The notes beneath the pieces are model-generated. The model searched no databases. It saw only the letters and a program-made list of their open reading frames with translations, and was not told the DNA's origin. DNA of 32,447 nucleotides from positions 1 through 32,447 of the IMG/VR virus record IMGVR_UViG_3300046804_004427; one strand, given 5' to 3'. The DNA is from a virus. This document shows, piece by piece, positions 15,508-31,941 of the stretch (its first letter is position 1; each line of letters starts with the position of its first letter). A program made the translations under genes and the position numbers.

Positions 15508-16025
15508 CATTACTATCATCCTTAAATAAAATTGTTGATCTGCTTGGAGATGGACTAAATAATAATGATTGGAATTTAATATCAGAAGCATACGAGCTAT
15601 TTACTGGTGAAGTAATAGAAGTTAAAAGCCAAGATCCTTCTGATATGCTTGCAATGATGATGCAAAGGCTAGAAAAGCTTGAAAATACAAAACAGACAAG
15701 CAATAATAAGAAGAAAGATAAGACCAAGCAGGAAGATAAAAAAGAATCTAATTTTTCTGTAGAGTCTAATAGAAAGTCAAGAAAAGTGACTGATAGAAAA
15801 GTAGAGAATAAGTTTGATCGTATGCAAGACATTATAGCGGAGGCTGGTAGGGAAGAAGGATTTGATCGTATCAATGATAATGTTAAGCCATCTGATCGTA
15901 GTCGAAGACCATATCAACCAAAGATGGTGAAATGTTCTGAGTGCAATTCAGATCATGAAGTGCATCCATTATTTGCTAGAGATAATTATACTTGTGATAG
16001 GTGTATTCAGCGACGGGGTGGTTAA
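15504..16025 (+). CDS. Protein with C-terminal zinc ribbon, 173 aa
   Basis: Coupled by ATGA to the previous gene. The N-terminal 60 residues are helical (LLSSLNKIVDLLGDGL), the middle is a long Lys/Glu-rich disordered linker, and the last 35 residues form a zinc ribbon: MVKCSECNSDHEVHPLF ... YTCDRCIQRR (two CxxC knuckles). The TAA overlaps the helicase ATG (TAATG). In phages such proteins often occur beside helicase genes and could act as helicase loader or ssDNA-binding accessory; this is positional inference. Confidence 0.65.
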   Translation: MTLLSSLNKIVDLLGDGLNNNDWNLISEAYELFTGEVIEVKSQDPSDMLAMMMQRLEKLENTKQTSNNKKKDKTKQEDKKESNFSVESNRKSRKVTDRKVENKFDRMQDIIAEAGREEGFDRINDNVKPSDRSRRPYQPKMVKCSECNSDHEVHPLFARDNYTCDRCIQRRGG

Positions 16026-17506
16026 TGTCTAAGATAGAAACAAGCCTTAAGAATATTGCGTCTGAACGGGCGGTACTGGCTGGCCTATTCCAATATGGTC
16101 AGGAAAGCCTGCTTGAAGTAGAATTACTTGTTAATGAAGATAGTTTTACTGTAGACGCAAATAAAGTTCTATACAAGTGCATTCTACATGCATTAAAGGA
16201 TAAGGAGTCTGCTGGATATACAGATATTTTATCTTCTGCTAAAAGCTTGCAACTAGATGAGTATGTAGAAAAGAATGAAGTTCTAAAGCATATGTCTGGG
16301 ATCATGAATACTCCCATTCATATTGACAATGTTCTTGAACATGCTAAGAAACTAAAACGATTAGAGTTTGCCAGAAAGATTCAGTCTGAATTAAGAACAA
16401 TCTATACAGACTTGAATAAAGTCACTGGCGATGAATCTATCACTGAGATATTGTCATTAACAGAAAGTCCAATACAAAATATCTGCCTTTCTTATATTAA
16501 AGAAGATGAGTTATTGCCACAGTCTATTGGCAATGATATCGATGAATACATTAATCATCTACAAGACAATCAAGGTAAATCAATTGGAATTACCACTGGC
16601 TTTGCGGCATTCGATAAGGCAATTGGTGGTGGATTAAGAAGAAAGTGCGTCGATCTTATTGCTGCCCGTCCAAAGACGGGCAAAAGTTGCTTGGCGGATA
16701 ATATGGCACTATACGTTGCTAGTAAACATAAGATTCCTGTCTTAATGCTAGATACGGAAATGAGTAAACAAGATCATATTAATAGATTATTGGCTAATCT
16801 AAGCGAAATAGAGATTAATAAGATTGCTTCTGGAGAGTTTTTCCAGGATGATGAAAAGAAGGATAAAGTTATACAAGGATCGAATCTGCTCAAAGATTTA
16901 CCATATGATTATATTAGCATTGCGGGAAGACCATTTGATGAAACGCTGTCAATTGCTAAAAGATGGCTAATTAAGAATGTTGGTTATGATGAAAATGGTG
17001 TGCTTAATGATTGCCTAATTATTTACGATTATCTGAAACTAATGACATCAGACAGTATAAATAATAACTTAGCAGAATTTCAAGTGCTAGGCTTTCAGAT
17101 TACGGCACTACATAATTTTTGTGTTGAGAATGACTGTCCATGTCTATCGTTTGTGCAGTTAAATAGAGATGGCATCACAAAAGAAACAACAGACGTTGTT
17201 AGCGGCTCAGATAGACTAGTCTGGCTATGTACAAGCTTCTCTATCTTTAAAGATAAAACCGATGAGGAAAGAATCACAGATGGAATTGCATCTGGTAATA
17301 AGAAGCTAATACCTGTTGTATCTAGGCATGGCCCTGGAATAGAAGACGAAGGCTATATTTGCTTGCAAATGGATGGAAAGTATGCTAAGATTAGAGAGAT
17401 CGGAACAATCAGGAGTATCAAGAGAAATGAACACGGTGGCCAACAAGGATTTGCAGATCAAGCAAACGCTGATTCTGAAAATCAAGATGATGAAGAAGAT
17501 TTTTGA
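16025..17506 (+). CDS. dnaB: DnaB-like replicative DNA helicase, 493 aa
   Basis: Start set at ATG 16025 (MSKIETSLKNIASERAVLAG), overlapping the previous TAA; an ATG at 16001 lies inside the previous gene and is not needed. The N-terminal helical domain resembles the DnaB N-domain, and from about residue 187 the RecA-fold core begins: GITTGFAAFDKAIGGG, Walker A ARPKTGKS (214-221), DTEMSKQDH, Walker B LIIYDYLKLM, and the VVSGSDRLVW segment. It should unwind DNA 5'-3' at the fork with the adjoining primase. Length fits DnaB (450-500). The acidic C-terminus overlaps the primase start by 20 bases. Confidence 0.92.
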   Translation: MSKIETSLKNIASERAVLAGLFQYGQESLLEVELLVNEDSFTVDANKVLYKCILHALKDKESAGYTDILSSAKSLQLDEYVEKNEVLKHMSGIMNTPIHIDNVLEHAKKLKRLEFARKIQSELRTIYTDLNKVTGDESITEILSLTESPIQNICLSYIKEDELLPQSIGNDIDEYINHLQDNQGKSIGITTGFAAFDKAIGGGLRRKCVDLIAARPKTGKSCLADNMALYVASKHKIPVLMLDTEMSKQDHINRLLANLSEIEINKIASGEFFQDDEKKDKVIQGSNLLKDLPYDYISIAGRPFDETLSIAKRWLIKNVGYDENGVLNDCLIIYDYLKLMTSDSINNNLAEFQVLGFQITALHNFCVENDCPCLSFVQLNRDGITKETTDVVSGSDRLVWLCTSFSIFKDKTDEERITDGIASGNKKLIPVVSRHGPGIEDEGYICLQMDGKYAKIREIGTIRSIKRNEHGGQQGFADQANADSENQDDEEDF

Positions 17507-18500
17507 AGTTTTAGAATTCTTTGATATTGATGAATATTATGAGTCTAATAATCTAATTATTAGTAAATGCCCAATTCATGATGGCGATAATCCAACAGCT
17601 TTTAATATTAATATAGATGAAGAAAATGAAGAACATTATGGCAAGTGGTTTTGTAATACAAAAAATTGTCATAATGAAAAACCAGGAAAAGATATTCTAT
17701 CTCTTATATGGATGCTACTAGAGAAAAAGCATAATAAGCAAATAAAATTTCCAGAGGTTGTTAAATTTTGTAATAATTTTGCAGCCGATATTCATATAAA
17801 TGAGAATAATCTAATAGCCGCAAAAAGTGATGCTATTGATAAATTATTGAAAATGGAGTCTAAAAAAGCCTCCAAATCTAATGATGTAAAAATCGATAGA
17901 AAGACTGTTAGAAAGTATTTATCATTTCCAGCACAGTTCTATATTGATAGGGGTTTTTCAGCAGAAGTATTAGATATATTTGATATTGGACTATGTACTA
18001 ATCCTAAGAGCCAAATGTATAAAAGAATTGTATTTCCGGTATATGATGAAAATGATGAGTTTATGATTGGCTGTACTGGAAGAACAATATGCAATGATCC
18101 AAGAAAGTGGATTAATCAAAAGGGATTTAACAAATCTAACTTTCTATATAATTATGGAAAAGCAATGGGGCATATCAAGAGGACTCAAACTATAATACTA
18201 GTGGAAGGTCAAGGAGATGTAATAAGGCTTTGGGAGGCCGGTATTCATAATTGCGTTGGCATGTTTGGATCTAAAATAAGCGATGCACAAGAGTTTTTGA
18301 TTCAAAAAACAGGTGCTTCTAATATCATCACAATGACTGATAATGATGATGCGGGACAGGCTTGTGCAAAAGATCTACATAATAGACTAAAGTATTTATT
18401 TAATATATATTCAATTAATATTCCTAAAAAAGACATAGGCGAAATGACGGTTGATGAAATCAACTGTAGTATTAAGCCACAAATTGAAGGACAGTTTTAA
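17487..18500 (+). CDS. dnaG: DnaG-like primase, 337 aa
   Basis: Start at ATG 17487 or 17490 (MMKKIFEVLEFFDID), inside the helicase 3' end; earlier in-frame starts would extend far into the helicase gene. A zinc-binding region (CPIHDGDNPTAFN at 28-40, FCNTKNCH at 55-62) is followed by a TOPRIM-type catalytic domain: IILVEGQGDVIRLW supplies the Glu and MTDNDDAGQACA the DxD pair. GLCTNPKSQMYKRIVFPVYD matches the RNA-polymerase-domain start of DnaG-like primases. The C-terminal helicase-binding domain is short or missing, so helicase contact may differ. It should make RNA primers for the phage fork. Confidence 0.9.
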   Translation: MMKKIFEVLEFFDIDEYYESNNLIISKCPIHDGDNPTAFNINIDEENEEHYGKWFCNTKNCHNEKPGKDILSLIWMLLEKKHNKQIKFPEVVKFCNNFAADIHINENNLIAAKSDAIDKLLKMESKKASKSNDVKIDRKTVRKYLSFPAQFYIDRGFSAEVLDIFDIGLCTNPKSQMYKRIVFPVYDENDEFMIGCTGRTICNDPRKWINQKGFNKSNFLYNYGKAMGHIKRTQTIILVEGQGDVIRLWEAGIHNCVGMFGSKISDAQEFLIQKTGASNIITMTDNDDAGQACAKDLHNRLKYLFNIYSINIPKKDIGEMTVDEINCSIKPQIEGQF

Positions 18501-19291
18501 TGACAAAAATTATAGCTTTATGCGGTAAGAAACAAAGCGGCAAAACTACTCTATCAAACTATCTTCATGGTCATGAGATGAAACGACATGATGTAGTAGA
18601 AAAGTTTTTTATTTCACCAGAAGGTAATTTGGTGGTCAATTGCACCTTTTATGATGACAATGGCAAAGAGTTTGAAGAGATGGGCGTATTAGATCTTCAA
18701 CAAAAGAATGATGAATTTTATCAGTATGCATCCAGAAGAATATGGCCATTAGTTCGATCTTATAATTTTGCAGACTCATTAAAAGAAATATGCGTAATGT
18801 TATTTAATATGCCTCCAGAATGCGTGTATGGCACAGACGAACAAAAGAATCAAGTTCAAGAGCATCTACGCTGGGAAAACATGCCGGGCATTACTGGTCA
18901 ATCTGGGCCAATGACATCTCGCGAATTTATGCAGTTTTTTGGTACAGACGTTATGCGTAAAATGTATGAACCCATTTGGCTAGAAAACTGTATGAGACGA
19001 ATAGAAACTGATAAGCCAGAAATAGCCGTTATTGGAGATTGTAGATTTACTAATGAAATTAAAATGGTTCAAGATAACGGAGGAAAGGTTATTAGATTAA
19101 CTAGATCACTATACAAAAGTGAGCATCAAAGTGAAATTGATGCTGATAACTATGATAAGTTTGATGCGGTTATTGACAATCAAAATCTAAGCATAGATGA
19201 ATCTTGTAATAAGTTTGTATCTATTCTAATAGATATGGGGATTACTAAGAAAATTAGAGAAACTGGTAAATACACGGTTTCAATCAAATGA
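18500..19291 (+). CDS. Deoxynucleoside monophosphate kinase, 263 aa
   Basis: Coupled to the primase by TAATG. A P-loop GKKQSGKTT (residues 9-17) opens the protein. Further phage dNMP-kinase signatures are SREFMQFFGTDVMRKMYEP and IWLENCMRR, then AVIGDCRFTNEI, which in T4-type enzymes forms the DR(F/Y) segment of the lid/base-binding site. It should phosphorylate dNMPs to dNDPs, feeding the nrdAB-made pool. Length matches phage dNMP kinases (about 240 aa) with a ~30-residue insertion near residues 30-60. Confidence 0.88.
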   Translation: MTKIIALCGKKQSGKTTLSNYLHGHEMKRHDVVEKFFISPEGNLVVNCTFYDDNGKEFEEMGVLDLQQKNDEFYQYASRRIWPLVRSYNFADSLKEICVMLFNMPPECVYGTDEQKNQVQEHLRWENMPGITGQSGPMTSREFMQFFGTDVMRKMYEPIWLENCMRRIETDKPEIAVIGDCRFTNEIKMVQDNGGKVIRLTRSLYKSEHQSEIDADNYDKFDAVIDNQNLSIDESCNKFVSILIDMGITKKIRETGKYTVSIK

Positions 19292-20301
19292 TTATATGCT
19301 ACCATAGAAGCTCATCTCTAGGTACATTAGAGATGTGCGAAATGAAATACTTTTTCCAATATGTACTTGGAATGAAAGACAAGACTAATAAAAAGGCTGT
19401 TCTTGGCACTATCTTTCATAGAACAATGCAAGTATTGGCAGACAAGAAAAAAGCCCAGGTCAATAAGCAAAAGTTATTAAAAAATGATGATATTTCCAAT
19501 TTAACTTTTGCACAGTGCGATGATATCGAATATATAACCCGACTATGTTTTGAGTATTATAAAAAGCACGAAGAAGATGTGGGATTAACTAATACTGATT
19601 ATAAAACATGTCTTGGCTGGGTTAATAAAGCATTAGCATATAATAATGGATCTTTAGATCCAAGAAATCAAGATATATACGCTACAGAGCTTTTCTTTGA
19701 TATAGAAATTAAAAAGCCATGGGCAAAATATTCTTATAATATTAATGGTAAAAGTTTCTCTGGATACTTAGCCATCAAAGGCACGATAGATCTTATAGTT
19801 AAAGAAGATTCAGCATATTATCAAGTGCTAGATTATAAGTCTGGAAAAAGATTGAATTGGGCTACTGGTAAAGAGAAAACATATGAGGATTTATGTTCTG
19901 ATAAACAACTTCTATTATATTTTTATGCATTAAAGAACATGTATCCAAAGTATGATTTTTATACTAGTATATTTTATATTAATGATGGAGGAGTATTTGA
20001 TATTGTTTTTTCTGAAGATGATTACGATAAAGCAGAAAAAATGCTTAAAGAAAAGTTTGATCAAATCCGATCTATTGAATTGCCAAGACAGCTATCTAGT
20101 GATCAAAGTCATTGGAAATGTACTAAATTATGTAAATTTGCTGAGCAATTTCCTGGTTCCAAAAAAACTACTTGCCAGCACTTCCATGATATGATAAAAT
20201 CTGATGGCATGGGCACGGTTGTAAACAAGTACGCGGACTTAAATAAGTTTGGACAATATGGTGCTGGTGGAGGAAAATTAGACAATGCTGAGAAATCATA
20301 G
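19288..20301 (+). CDS. RecB/Cas4-family PD-(D/E)XK nuclease with Fe-S cysteines, 337 aa
   Basis: Coupled by ATGA. The nuclease core is visible as H44 (GTIFHRTMQ), D168 (KGTIDLIV), D182-x-K184 (VLDYKSGK) and Q207-Y211 (KQLLLYFYA), the RecB motifs. Four cysteines, one near the N-terminus (C17, LEMCEMKYFF) and three near the C-terminus (C278, C282, C296: KCTKLCKF...TTCQHFH), match the 4Fe-4S cluster arrangement of Cas4, AddB and Dna2. The protein is therefore probably a 5'-3' ssDNA exonuclease used in recombination and end processing. There is no CRISPR array nearby. It overlaps the polymerase start. Confidence 0.88.
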   Translation: MIICYHRSSSLGTLEMCEMKYFFQYVLGMKDKTNKKAVLGTIFHRTMQVLADKKKAQVNKQKLLKNDDISNLTFAQCDDIEYITRLCFEYYKKHEEDVGLTNTDYKTCLGWVNKALAYNNGSLDPRNQDIYATELFFDIEIKKPWAKYSYNINGKSFSGYLAIKGTIDLIVKEDSAYYQVLDYKSGKRLNWATGKEKTYEDLCSDKQLLLYFYALKNMYPKYDFYTSIFYINDGGVFDIVFSEDDYDKAEKMLKEKFDQIRSIELPRQLSSDQSHWKCTKLCKFAEQFPGSKKTTCQHFHDMIKSDGMGTVVNKYADLNKFGQYGAGGGKLDNAEKS

Positions 20302-22132
20302 TCATTACTCGTTATTATTATCTACATCAAGATCTGAGCAGATTACACAAACCTGCAAAGATGCCGGGTATGAATATGCTGGCATTCTAGATATTGCTAC
20401 TATCAGTGGCTGTGTGAATTTTATTCAAGCCTGCAAGAGCAGTGGTGTTAAGCCAATTATTGGTTCTGAAATCATACTTGATGATGGGTCAAGGCTAGCA
20501 TTAATCTGTAGAAATGATGCGGCATGGATAGAGTTACTAAAAATCATATCTATATCTAATAGTCCAGAAAACTATGATGAAACGCCCACTATCAAATTTG
20601 AAGATCTAATTAAGAATATCACATGTCATAACTTTATCTGCATAGATGGTTTTACAATGAGTAAACTATTTACAACGGTAATGCCAGATCATGATTGTAT
20701 TTTTAAATCATTAGATCATGATGGTATTCATGATTGTTTAGTCAATGACTATCTTAATATTGCTAAGAAGCATGTAGAAAACATGCGTTCATATTTTAAG
20801 CATTATTATTTAGAATATAATAGCATAGATCATGACTCTTACCCAATTACTAAGATAATGTCAGATATTATTTCTAGTATTGATCCAGATCAAAGTTTTT
20901 CTATTCCAGACACATCGTCTTATTATCCAGAAAGAAAAGATGCTATAGATCATAGGGTGCTGATATGCACAAAGCTCAAGACTACTATGAAGAAGCTAGA
21001 TCAAAAGATTATAGAAAATAAAGATTTAGATTCTTTAAGATTTATTCGTAGTAGTAACTATTATATTAAGAGTTTAGATTTTTTGAAAGAGCATTATGGC
21101 GAGAAGCCAATTAGTAATTTAATTCATATAACATCATTAATTGAAGATATAAACATTCTATCTAGACCTAAACTCCCAGAATTTGAAACGCCAAATAAAA
21201 CATCAGAAGATGAATATCTAAAACAGCTTTGTAGAGATGGCTGGAAAAATTTAATAGCAAATCGTATTGACAAGTCTAAGCATGAAGTCTATAAAAATAG
21301 AGTACTAAAGGAACTTGAAGTTATCAAGAACGCCAAACTGTCTGGATACTTTCTTATTGTACAAGACTATGTAAATCACTTTAGGAATCAAGGATGCTTA
21401 GTTGGTCCAGCCCGTGGTTCTGGTGGCGGGTCATTAGTCTGCTATTTAACGGGAATTACTCTAATTGATCCTATTGAATATAGTTTACTATTCGAAAGGT
21501 TTTATAATGAGGGCAGAAATACTGAGGATCATGTTTCTCTACCAGATATTGACGTTGACTTCCCACCAGATTATAGAGACTCTGTAATTCAATATCTTAA
21601 AGATAAATATGGAGAATCTAGAGTTTGTCAAATGTTAACATTTGGTAGACTTGCTGGAAGATCAATCTTGAAAGAAGTGCTAAGAGTTAATGAGTCGTGC
21701 AGTTTTGATGAGATGAATATCATAACTGAAAAGATTCCTAATGAAGCGGCCATTTCAGATTTACTAGAAGAAATGGATAATCCTTCAGTAATTAGATGGG
21801 CATTAGAGAATGATAAAAATGCTCTAATTGATTATTGCTGGATTGATGATAATGGCGAGTTGCAAGGAGAATATGCTAAAGTATTTCAGCAAGCCATTAG
21901 AATGGAAGGCATATTTAAGACTCAGGGTAAACATGCCGCTGGCGTTGTTATAGCCTCGCATGATTTAAAAGAGATATGTCCCATGGTAAAGTCATCAAGA
22001 AGTTCAGAACAAATTGCTGGGATGGAAATGGGCGATCTTGAGGCTATTGGATGCGTTAAATTTGATATTTTAGGAGTTAATCTTTTAAAGAAGATCGCAG
22101 AAACCGTACACGAGGTTAATAATGAATTATAG
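20285..22132 (+). CDS. dnaE: DNA polymerase III alpha, N-terminal part (PHP and palm), 615 aa
   Basis: ATG 20285 follows GGAGGA and lies inside the previous gene. Residues 1-~230 are a PHP domain (LRNHSHYSLLLS start), degenerate in later metal ligands. The palm follows: GPARGSGGGSLVCYLTGI, LPDIDVDFPPDYRD with catalytic D421 and D423, CQMLTFGRLAGRS, GKHAAGVVIA, and VKFDILGVNLLKKI with the third catalytic D594. All three metal-binding aspartates of DnaE are thus in this part. It stops at VNNEL, just after the point where E. coli DnaE continues to the fingers. The rest of the polymerase is encoded at 22789-24342, beyond the exonuclease gene. No intein motif is present at the C-terminus. Confidence 0.95.
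   Translation: MLRNHSHYSLLLSTSRSEQITQTCKDAGYEYAGILDIATISGCVNFIQACKSSGVKPIIGSEIILDDGSRLALICRNDAAWIELLKIISISNSPENYDETPTIKFEDLIKNITCHNFICIDGFTMSKLFTTVMPDHDCIFKSLDHDGIHDCLVNDYLNIAKKHVENMRSYFKHYYLEYNSIDHDSYPITKIMSDIISSIDPDQSFSIPDTSSYYPERKDAIDHRVLICTKLKTTMKKLDQKIIENKDLDSLRFIRSSNYYIKSLDFLKEHYGEKPISNLIHITSLIEDINILSRPKLPEFETPNKTSEDEYLKQLCRDGWKNLIANRIDKSKHEVYKNRVLKELEVIKNAKLSGYFLIVQDYVNHFRNQGCLVGPARGSGGGSLVCYLTGITLIDPIEYSLLFERFYNEGRNTEDHVSLPDIDVDFPPDYRDSVIQYLKDKYGESRVCQMLTFGRLAGRSILKEVLRVNESCSFDEMNIITEKIPNEAAISDLLEEMDNPSVIRWALENDKNALIDYCWIDDNGELQGEYAKVFQQAIRMEGIFKTQGKHAAGVVIASHDLKEICPMVKSSRSSEQIAGMEMGDLEAIGCVKFDILGVNLLKKIAETVHEVNNEL
22112..22115 (+). promoter_or_regulatory. Shine-Dalgarno for the exonuclease within the polymerase gene
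   Basis: GAGG sits 6 bases before ATG 22122, within the last codons of the alpha N-part. It indicates that the exonuclease is started separately and is not made by read-through or frameshift. Confidence 0.6.
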
Positions 22133-22805
22133 AGACTTTATTGTTTATGACTTTGAAACCACTAGTGCTAATCCATATACTACGCAGCCAGTGCAAATAG
22201 CGGCTGTAGTTGTTCATGGAAGAAAACTAGAGATTAAAAGTGGCTCTGAATTTCAATCACTAATGAAGCCAGTATTTGATCATGATAAATGTAAAAAGCT
22301 GGGAATAGATCCGCTTGAAGATGGTGCGGTTGCGGTACACGGAAAAACAGAAGAAATATTGAAGTCTGCCCCAAGTATAGAATCTGTTTGGAAAAACTTT
22401 ACAGACTATGTTAATCAGTATAATTTTAAGTCCAGTAATTGGAGTGCCCCAATTTCTGTAGGATATAACATTAAAAACTTTGATTCTATTATAGTAAATA
22501 GACTGTGTTCACAAGCACCATATAAGTTTGGACCAATGGATTCCAAGCGTGGAGAACAAGACTTATTTAATCGCATTCATAGCATAGACATGCTTGACTT
22601 CATGTTTGCTTTATTCGAAAATAACAAAGACGTTAATTCACTATCAGCAGATAATTTAGTTCGCGGATACATGGGATATACACAGGGTAAAGCACACGAT
22701 GCTATGTCAGACGTTATAATGACCGCAGAGCTTTTTTGTCGCACAATGAAAATGCTAAGAACAACAGCATCTAGAAAGAATTTTAAAAATGCATTCACAG
22801 ATTAA
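22122..22805 (+). CDS. DnaQ-like DEDDh 3'-5' exonuclease (proofreading-type), 227 aa
   Basis: The gene lies between the two halves of the polymerase, overlapping the first by 11 bases and the second by 17. The DEDDh motifs are complete: Exo I VYDFETT (D10, E12), Exo II VGYNIKNFDS (D121), and Exo III KAHDAMSDV (H192, D197). It should remove 3' mismatches, i.e. act as an epsilon-like proofreader for the surrounding alpha. A bacterial epsilon-type C-terminal alpha-binding tail is not clear, so contact with alpha may be different. An RNase T-like or ExoI-like function is the alternative. Confidence 0.92.
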   Translation: MNYRDFIVYDFETTSANPYTTQPVQIAAVVVHGRKLEIKSGSEFQSLMKPVFDHDKCKKLGIDPLEDGAVAVHGKTEEILKSAPSIESVWKNFTDYVNQYNFKSSNWSAPISVGYNIKNFDSIIVNRLCSQAPYKFGPMDSKRGEQDLFNRIHSIDMLDFMFALFENNKDVNSLSADNLVRGYMGYTQGKAHDAMSDVIMTAELFCRTMKMLRTTASRKNFKNAFTD

Positions 22806-24342
22806 TATTACCAATGTACCAGAAGACGATGCCAACGTATGGAAAATGATTAGCGAAGGCAGAGTTAAAGGCTGTTTTCAAATTGAAAGCCATCTTGGTA
22901 AGACATGGTGTAAGAAATTAATGCCAGAAAATATGATTGAACTGGCCGCTCTGATTAGTATTATTAGGCCAGGAACACTAAAGGCTATCGTAGATGGAAA
23001 GTCAATGACACAGCACTTCGTTGATCGTAAGCATAAAAAAGAGGAAATTCCAAGCCTACATCCATTGATCGATGATCTGCTTAAAGAAACATATGGTGTT
23101 ATCGTATATCAAGAACAGGCAATGGAAATCGCAGTCAAAATGGCTGGATTCAATCTAAAGCAGGCAGATGATCTAAGAAAGGCTATCGGTAAAAAGAAAG
23201 CTGACCTTATGAAAGAGGTTAGAATTAAATTTATCGATGGTTGTAAAAATAATCATATTGATGAAGATAAAGCAATAGAAATTTTCGATATGATTGAAAA
23301 ATCTGCTAGATACTCATTTAATAAGTCACATGCTGTGGCTTATGCAAAGATGGCATATTGGTCTGCATGGGTAAAGTATCATTATCCAGAAAAATTTTTC
23401 AAGCATTGGCTACAGAACGCCGATGAGAAGATAGATCCAGATTTAGAAAAAAGACAACTGATCATATCTGCAAAGTCTGAAGGAATTAAGGTTTGTGGAC
23501 CAAGTATAAAGATATTAGAAGAAAACTTTTCATGGCATAATAATGCTATACATTTTGGTATTTGCAATGTGAAAAATGTTGGCAATGCCCATCTAGCCCA
23601 GCTAAAAGATTATCTATCTAAAATAGATGCTACTGACTTGAACTGGACAACACTATTAGTTAAAGTATTACCAAATATTAATAAGCGAGCGGTTGAAAAT
23701 CTTATTAGCGTTGGTGCATTTTCTGGCTTTGGCAAAAGTAGAAGTGAAATGCTACACGAATATCATTGCTATTTAGATTTAACCGATAAGGAGCTAGACC
23801 ATTTAGCCAAACATAGTAATACTAAAGATTTAAATGTTACAACCATATTAGATAATTTTATTAAATCTGGAACAAAGAAAAATGGTGGATTTATATCCAC
23901 ACAATCTAGATTAGACAAAATAGAAAACATCTTATTAAGGATCAATAACCCCGGCAGAAGCCTAGTTGACAACTCTGTTGTTTATGCTAAAATTGAAGAG
24001 AAACTACTAGGATACTCTATTAATCATTCTGAGCTTAATGCCTGTTCAGAAACATGTCATGCAAATGCAACATGTAAAGAAGTAACTGATGGTAAAACTG
24101 GCGGATCTATTATTGCGGCCATTATCAAGCGTGTGCGTGAGCATAAAACAAAAAATGGCGATTTTATGGCTTTCTTATCAATAGAGGATGAGTCTGGAGA
24201 ATTAGAAAACATTGTAGTTTTTCCAGACATATACGAGCAAAACAGAGATATAATATATGAGCAGGCAACTGTTTTAATCTCTGGTGAAATTAAGGATAAA
24301 CAGAGAAATTCATTTATTGTTGATAAGATATTTACAATATAG
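22789..24342 (+). CDS. dnaE: DNA polymerase III alpha, C-terminal part (fingers, OB), 517 aa
   Basis: This continues DnaE almost exactly where the N-part stops: NITNVPEDDANVWKMISEGR, then KGCFQIESHLG, corresponds to the DnaE stretch leading into FQLES. Fingers motifs follow (ISIIRPGTL, YGVIVYQEQAMEIAVKMAG, LRKAIGKKKADLM, RYSFNKSHAVAYA). The end carries a DnaE-type OB domain (IKRVREHKTKNGDFMAFLSI, ENIVVFPDIYE). It has no PHP or catalytic Asp triad, so it can only work with the 615-aa part. Combined length (1132 aa) is near normal DnaE (~1160); the tau-binding C-terminus is short. ATG 22789 lies inside the exonuclease gene; a weak AGAAAG lies about 10 bases upstream. Confidence 0.94.
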   Translation: MHSQINITNVPEDDANVWKMISEGRVKGCFQIESHLGKTWCKKLMPENMIELAALISIIRPGTLKAIVDGKSMTQHFVDRKHKKEEIPSLHPLIDDLLKETYGVIVYQEQAMEIAVKMAGFNLKQADDLRKAIGKKKADLMKEVRIKFIDGCKNNHIDEDKAIEIFDMIEKSARYSFNKSHAVAYAKMAYWSAWVKYHYPEKFFKHWLQNADEKIDPDLEKRQLIISAKSEGIKVCGPSIKILEENFSWHNNAIHFGICNVKNVGNAHLAQLKDYLSKIDATDLNWTTLLVKVLPNINKRAVENLISVGAFSGFGKSRSEMLHEYHCYLDLTDKELDHLAKHSNTKDLNVTTILDNFIKSGTKKNGGFISTQSRLDKIENILLRINNPGRSLVDNSVVYAKIEEKLLGYSINHSELNACSETCHANATCKEVTDGKTGGSIIAAIIKRVREHKTKNGDFMAFLSIEDESGELENIVVFPDIYEQNRDIIYEQATVLISGEIKDKQRNSFIVDKIFTI

Positions 24343-24350
24343 GTTTGGAA

Positions 24351-24644
24351 ATGAATCAGTGTACATTTTTAGGAAAGCTAAAATCAATAAATATTGAAAA
24401 TAATGGAATTGATAGGGTTGAATTGATACTACAGGTTGAGAATAAAAGGAAGGTAAAAAATGAAATCAAAAAAATGGATTATGAATACCTTTCTTTTGAA
24501 GCCTGGGGTGGTGCCGCAATAACTATACATAAGAATCTAAGTGTAGATGACTATTTACTAGTTATTGATTCCACGGCAAGAAAGAATAAAGAGAAGGTAT
24601 GTTTTAGAATAAATGAATTTAAAATTATGAAAATAGGAAGTTGA
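24351..24644 (+). CDS. ssb: SSB-like OB-fold protein, 97 aa
   Basis: ATG 24351 (MNQCTFLGKLKSINIE) is preferred; a TTG at 24345 adds two residues. The pattern NQCTFLGKL, YLSFEAWGGAAITIHKNLSV, then DDYLLVIDSTARKNKEKVCF is that of a single OB-fold SSB, truncated to the DNA-binding domain, without the acidic Pro/Gly-rich tail by which bacterial SSB recruits partners. It probably coats ssDNA at the fork. Its place right after the polymerase supports this. Confidence 0.75.
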   Translation: MNQCTFLGKLKSINIENNGIDRVELILQVENKRKVKNEIKKMDYEYLSFEAWGGAAITIHKNLSVDDYLLVIDSTARKNKEKVCFRINEFKIMKIGS

Positions 24645-24645
24645 T

Positions 24646-25122
24646 ATGGATAAAAAAGTTGAATTGATGATTGAAAAAAATAAGAAGCTAATATATAGTA
24701 TAGCCAATTCTATTTATATTAAGAATAAGCTATTTAGTAAAGAAGATTTGATTCAAGTAGGATTTTTATCATTATGCAAGAGTGGGCATAAATATGATGA
24801 AGCCAGAGGTAAAGTTTCAACATTTATTACTCACTGCGTTAGAAATGATATGATTAAATTTATCAAATCAAATAAGATGCAAGGCGATCTTCTATATTCA
24901 GAAAATCAAAATTTAAGCTATAATAACAATAATAATCTAACCTGCCTGGATTATTATGATATTTGCTGTGCTAAAACAGAACTAGAAAAGAATATTATAA
25001 AACTAAAAATGAATGGGGAAACCAATAAGAATGTTGCATTAGCATTAGATATTTCTCCAAATAAAGTATCAAAGTTACTTTCCATAATGAAATCTAGAAT
25101 GGATAAGAGAAAAAATGCATAA
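24646..25122 (+). CDS. Small sigma-70-like RNA polymerase sigma factor, 158 aa
   Basis: Residues ~15-75 match sigma region 2: NKKLIYSIANSIY, KEDLIQVGFLSLCKSGHKYD, RGKVSTFITHCVRNDMIKFI. The C-terminal part (NGETNKNVALALDISPNKVSKLLSIMKSR) looks like a region-4 helix-turn-helix. Region 1 and region 3 are missing, as in ECF-type or phage-encoded sigma factors. It would direct host RNA polymerase to phage promoters, perhaps for late genes. No promoter consensus for it can be derived from this window. Its TAA overlaps the following gene. Confidence 0.85.
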   Translation: MDKKVELMIEKNKKLIYSIANSIYIKNKLFSKEDLIQVGFLSLCKSGHKYDEARGKVSTFITHCVRNDMIKFIKSNKMQGDLLYSENQNLSYNNNNNLTCLDYYDICCAKTELEKNIIKLKMNGETNKNVALALDISPNKVSKLLSIMKSRMDKRKNA

Positions 25123-31856: not shown

Positions 31857-31941
31857 GGAGGTTTGGCAGAGAGGTCTAATGCACCGGTTTACTAAACCGA
31901 CGAGGTGAAAACTTCCACAGGTTCGAATCCTGTAGCCTCCG
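31857..31941 (+). tRNA. tRNA-Ser, anticodon ACU
   Basis: A complete class II tRNA folds: acceptor GGAGGTT/AGCCTCC (7 pairs), D stem GCA/TGC, anticodon arm CCGGT-TTACTAA-ACCGA (four pairs plus an outer C-A mismatch), long variable arm (GAGGT/ACTTC), T arm ACAGG-TTCGAAT-CCTGT and discriminator G at 31941. The long variable arm and G73 fit serine. The anticodon is at 31891-31893 (ACT), reading AGU; GCU is the usual form for this codon box. CCA is not encoded. Confidence 0.93.

Follow-up and report, generated by a model that had tools for sequence, protein, structure and literature searches.

A DnaE-type polymerase III alpha encoded in two pieces, with an exonuclease gene between them, in a large phage lineage

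Introduction

The stretch of DNA analysed here, the window, is an entire IMG/VR record of 32,447 bases, that is, a 32-kb virus fragment. Among its replication genes is a DnaE-type polymerase III alpha that is encoded not as a single chain but as two separate open reading frames, alphaN and alphaC, between which lies the gene of a DEDDh 3'-5' exonuclease (exo). That this arrangement is real and conserved is very well supported; the enzymatic functions are those predicted from sequence. Our preferred reading, to which we would assign a probability of somewhat more than three-quarters, is that the locus is replicative and encodes a permanently two-chain C-family alpha, the halves of which would associate non-covalently, with the product of the intervening gene as the probable proofreader. 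We infer that the three proteins act as one enzyme.

The locus and its neighbourhood

The three genes alphaN (positions 20285..22132, 615 residues), exo (22122..22805, 227 residues) and alphaC (22789..24342, 517 residues) all lie on the plus strand, each in a different frame. The end of alphaN overlaps the start of exo by 11 nt (22122..22132), with GAGG preceding the ATG of exo by 6 nt, and the end of exo overlaps the start of alphaC by 17 nt (22789..22805), here without a clear Shine-Dalgarno sequence. A prior sequence-only reading of the window had proposed just such an alpha in two ORFs with an exonuclease between them; its coordinates, both overlaps and the three frames are all reproduced, and Pfam and PHROG domain matches agree with its gene assignments.

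The genes that flank the break are those of replication. Upstream, and likewise on the plus strand, are a DnaB-like replicative helicase, part of the replication module by Pfam and PHROG (16001..17506), a Toprim DnaG-type primase (17373..18500), a deoxynucleoside monophosphate kinase (18500..19291) and a PD-(D/E)XK (Cas4/RecB-like) nuclease (19288..20301), the last of which overlaps the start of alphaN by 17 nt. Downstream, on the same strand, come a small protein of 99 residues with a TTG start and no family match (24345..24644) and a sigma-70-like protein (24646..25122). The small protein is kept directly 3' of alphaC in close relatives, and an SSB-like identity for it would be a guess only. 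The helicase and primase ORFs share 134 nt (17373-17506) in different frames, much as they do in most close relatives, and in several relatives the helicase is interrupted at residue ~225 by about 1 kb, probably an intein or intron (L003 2635-3662, L018 2996-4020, L020 1844-2841). A single tRNA gene is found in the window at the Rfam gathering threshold (31857-31941), and a search for a T4-type capsid gave no match anywhere.

The position of the break

By Pfam, alphaN, the PHP/palm/thumb half, contains a PHP domain (PF02811, 5e-17) and the PF07733 palm family (3e-71), the latter matched at profile positions 1-260 of 260. In alphaC, the fingers/tandem HhH/OB half, the matches are to the fingers (PF17657, 4e-46) and HHH_6; that to OB falls below the cut-off, and the alphaC model shows a beta domain at its C-terminal end. 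All three catalytic palm aspartates, D421, D423 and D594, lie in the 615-residue ORF, as had been claimed from the letters, and are kept in 117 of 117 lineages.

Three lines of comparison place the break. In phrog_405, a one-chain phage polymerase, positions 47-616 are matched by alphaN and 623-1071 by alphaC, with about 6 positions missing. With profiles built from relatives, alphaN aligns to E. coli alpha as far as residue ~573 (2hnh) and alphaC from ~584 (5fku), such that the halves are complementary with some 10 residues left uncovered. In Foldseek, separate AlphaFold (AF2) models of the two halves, with mean pLDDT values of 80 and 83, both hit structures of Pol III alpha. As mapped on these profiles, the break is at the palm/fingers border of Pol III alpha. 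PHP, PF07733 palm, fingers, HhH and OB thus follow one another in DnaE order across two chains, and at every clade locus these are separate ORFs. The N-terminal half is shortened to about 525 residues in some members. Interruptions of ~0.6-1.3 kb are also seen within the halves of certain members of the clade: alphaN is entered at PDIDVD, the catalytic site (residues 418-421; L024 9157-10138), and alphaC at residues ~64 and ~179 (L015, L016, L022).

The PHP metal ligands are degraded in the window, with the first His, the LLDG Asp and the TDH His all absent, and, judged by these residues, alphaN does not appear to carry an active Zn-dependent PHP proofreading domain. In L023, a distant member of the clade, the ligands are intact. 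Decay of the metal site in the window's subclade, with the ligands kept in L023, fits reliance on a separate exonuclease.

DnaE is the classic split-intein host, and the ORFs of the window overlap in three frames, both of which could suggest that the halves are rejoined, whether through a split intein, an exo-bearing intron spliced in trans or in cis, or programmed frameshifting into one alphaN-exo-alphaC chain. A split intein does indeed occur in the wider phage DnaE family, with a Cys start and a VHN/S end (L339). That alphaN ends no more than 21 residues past D594, and that 17 residues of alphaC precede the first invariant position of its fingers, argues against such a device in the window clade, as these margins leave no room for intein halves; neither an IntN on the N-terminal piece nor an IntC on the C-terminal piece is present, the halves being without extensions. 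The window's overlaps are too tight to hold a ribozyme, and no intron family reached the Rfam gathering threshold in eight loci. As for frameshifting, both junctions show all three frame relations among the 117 lineages, with gaps running from -41 to +1601 nt, and this mixture of frames and width of range rules out a conserved mechanism. We consider rejoining very improbable. Separate, associating chains are the most likely product, since the junctions show every frame relation, many lineages lack the overlaps and no intein signature is present. The site at which the cyanobacterial DnaE is broken, the FNKSHS region, had been described as intact, and the motif, here FNKSHA, does stand unbroken within alphaC.

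The intein-bearing gene of L339 (a phage contig, 5512-10455) is a canonical split-intein-like dnaE, reading GRG/CFIPDSM... and ...VHN/SAAGS at its junctions (slash), with its halves ~740 nt apart.

Conservation among relatives

The search of relatives for the same gene order, which the sequence-only reading had put forward as a check, was run as six IMG/VR scans and yielded several hundred relatives. In the first five scans, 249 loci have alphaN, exo and alphaC in this order and orientation, a count that includes the window's own sequence (L001) and in which some contigs appear as several overlapping loci; the other loci of these scans are cut off by the contig end, have an interrupted half or hold distant exonucleases that belong to other genes. 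No fused alpha, unsplit alpha or missing exo was found among the first-five-scan loci of the clade. The sixth scan, centred deliberately on an unsplit outgroup, returned about forty unsplit DnaE genes together with about twenty or more further, divergent alphaN-exo-alphaC loci. Counting as a lineage any sequence of less than 97% identity in alphaN (that is, differing by more than 3%), the order is present in every sufficiently complete relative, in 117 lineages, down to ~40% identity to the window. In GenBank phages, no alphaN match exceeds ~31% identity.

All three genes are under purifying selection, with median dN/dS values of 0.045 for alphaN, 0.018 for exo and 0.054 for alphaC, which are rough figures, many pairs being saturated at synonymous sites. 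The fingers residues examined are kept in the 117 lineages. Pairwise distances of alphaN, exo and alphaC correlate (r 0.86-0.90), and in trees the split group forms one side of a branch with support of 100/100, and of 100 SH-aLRT in a second tree; so well supported a branch is consistent with one founding split.

These results bear directly on the possibility, natural enough for a short metagenomic contig, that the window merely holds a frame-shifted dnaE pseudogene or a degraded or misassembled sequence. An error joining the ORFs had been named at the outset as the case that would undo the two-piece alpha. Sequencing error is not compatible with so conserved a gene order, and the comparative data exclude this case: the same architecture recurs in more than a hundred independent lineages, assembled separately, under strong purifying selection and with invariant catalytic residues. 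We regard artefact as a negligible prospect.

What is not conserved is the fine structure of the junctions. The overlap of alphaN with exo occurs in 38 of the 117 lineages and that of exo with alphaC in 75; elsewhere the order persists although the genes stand from tens of bases to over 1000 bases apart, with other genes in some of the gaps. The inserts found beside exo are EndoVII/HNH-like, T5orf172-domain, methyltransferase, nuclease and UDG genes, and this variety indicates that the broken border tolerates insertions. The earlier proposal of a co-translated alpha assembled at the ribosome is consequently not supported as a general rule: with all frame relations and such gaps, obligatory translational coupling is not the conserved feature. 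Co-translational assembly is possible in the window and is not supported as an obligatory mechanism across the clade.

The exonuclease between the halves

The intervening ORF matches PF00929 (3e-17), and all five residues of the complete DEDDh exonuclease first recognised by eye (D10, E12, D121, H192, D197) are confirmed and conserved across the 117 lineages, four apparent catalytic gaps being start-codon misassignments. Its best phage family is phrog_192, annotated as "DNA polymerase exonuclease subunit". Among solved structures, exo comes closest in sequence to a PolC exonuclease domain, a weak match, and in GenBank phages it finds only 26-30% identity, in Rctr197k and B. theta phages, where the gene has other surroundings. 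From gene position and fold, an epsilon-like proofreading subunit is the most likely assignment; because exo is only distantly related to known epsilon and PolC exonucleases, another 3'-5' exonuclease task is possible.

It might be, for example, that exo is an independent 3'-5' exonuclease, acting on DNA or RNA, that lodged at the break in alpha, perhaps instead of a homing endonuclease, and has been kept there by linkage. The spot is prone to insertion, with EndoVII/HNH-like, T5orf172 and unrelated genes entering the gaps repeatedly; Rossellomorea phage phiT1, broken at the same border, has an unrelated small ORF in place of exo; and similarity to known epsilon is weak. But while other inserts come and go, exo is never lost or moved in any locus, it is the most tightly constrained of the three genes, and phrog_192 remains its best phage family. 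We therefore think this account unlikely, and prefer that of a proofreader working with the two-chain alpha.

At the other extreme, alphaN, exo and alphaC might form an obligate core, in which exo helps to bridge or stabilise the palm/fingers break and polymerisation depends on the proofreader. If true, this would be an enzyme unable to polymerise without its own editor. We hold this stronger form to be less likely still.

A probable sole polymerase

The window has one PF07733 match. In twelve records of 96-173 kb, none known to be complete, there is exactly one PF07733 match each, and neither a family A or B polymerase (family B as PF00136) nor a beta-clamp C-terminal domain was found; PF17657 likewise occurs once in the twelve records searched for it. 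A full-length alpha elsewhere in the genome, with the two halves inactive, would have told against the initial proposal; there is none in these twelve large relatives. As the window's record is itself a 32-kb fragment, the case that its virus lacks a second alpha is backed only by these larger relatives, and, most records being fragments, a second polymerase beyond their ends is possible.

A proposed two-chain alpha with its own proofreader

In the mechanism that we favour, alphaN and alphaC would be translated independently from one replication operon, alphaN bringing all three catalytic aspartates and alphaC the fingers, HhH and OB. To our knowledge, extensive contacts are made between these parts in every Pol III alpha, and by way of such contacts the halves would associate non-covalently to give a working alpha. 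The exonuclease would serve as an epsilon-like 3'-5' proofreader, in succession to the PHP domain, of which the metal site is degraded in the subclade of the window. The order of the genes would descend from one founding split and be retained by a shared need for all three products, with overlaps and translational coupling as local features. A plausible history is that alpha broke at a permissive domain border, where an exonuclease gene then became fixed.

On this evidence the catalytic alpha of a bacterial-type replicase can be kept stably in two pieces, each translated on its own, throughout a large and old phage lineage, with the gene of the probable proofreader fixed between them. It would offer a natural, ready-cut system for the study of palm-fingers communication and of the coupling of proofreading to polymerisation. 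The gene order is a distinctive marker for a large group of uncultured phages, and it carries a warning for annotation, in that two "partial dnaE" genes flanking an exonuclease are real.

Comparison with known systems

In the open-licence literature we found no published description of the alphaN-exo-alphaC arrangement. The survey of DnaE and PolC architectures, which includes a Bacteroidetes DnaE1 with an N-terminally fused exonuclease, does not contain it (Timinskas et al., PMC3919608). The bacterial Pol III core of DnaE1 and DnaQ has the same alpha domains and a separate DEDDh exonuclease, but there a single chain makes up alpha and the epsilon gene lies at another place, whereas the window has two chains with exo between them. 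PolC, too, combines a polymerase and a DEDDh exonuclease in one locus, and it is the PolC exonuclease that exo, weakly, most resembles. In PolC, however, the exonuclease sits inside the PHP domain of a single chain; the alpha of the window is DnaE-type in domain order, and its exo has an ORF of its own, which follows the palm. Cyanobacterial DnaE of the Ssp split-intein type likewise comes from two genes, although with the break at another site and with an intein, of which the window has no sequence.

Phage DnaE in two ORFs is also known from Cellulophaga phiST-type phages and Bacillus phage Jayan, in which, unlike the window, the palm itself is cut, directly ahead of the catalytic PDIDxDF motif, and no exonuclease lies between. 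In the phiST-type phages (L043 7100-7320; L352, L355, L357) it immediately precedes PDIDTDF, and the pieces carry a C-terminal extension of ~50 residues ending EGDDLIKY* and an N-terminal one of ~17 residues, without intein Cys/HN signatures. Pseudomonas phage Y1 (L314, OQ572403, an unverified record) was set aside as an unsplit relative; its dnaE groups with bacterial DnaE1, and the record may accordingly hold host sequence.

Another two-piece alpha of DnaE type is that of the isolate phiT1 (PV767480). It breaks at the palm/fingers border as well (gp20/gp18), yet with the unrelated 49-residue gp19 (L317 5698-5850), and no exonuclease, between the halves. Judged by identity, it stands closest (~42%) to gut-phage DnaEs that are unsplit, and this speaks for a break of independent origin, although one tree puts it weakly beside the window clade. 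As an isolate, phiT1 indicates that a break at this border is compatible with a viable phage, and it is a possible model system.

In the group 2.2 jumbo phages, a minimal Pol III alpha is split into distant genes beside a family B polymerase (Iyer et al., PMC7824862). There, as here, a two-protein C-family alpha without an intein is proposed to reconstitute one enzyme. The window clade has instead a full PHP-to-OB alpha in adjacent genes, with exo between them and, in the twelve large records, neither a family A nor a family B polymerase. Non-intein split phage alphas of other designs are thus already known, and it is the adjacency of the halves, their full size, the exonuclease between them and the apparent lack of another polymerase that set this one apart.
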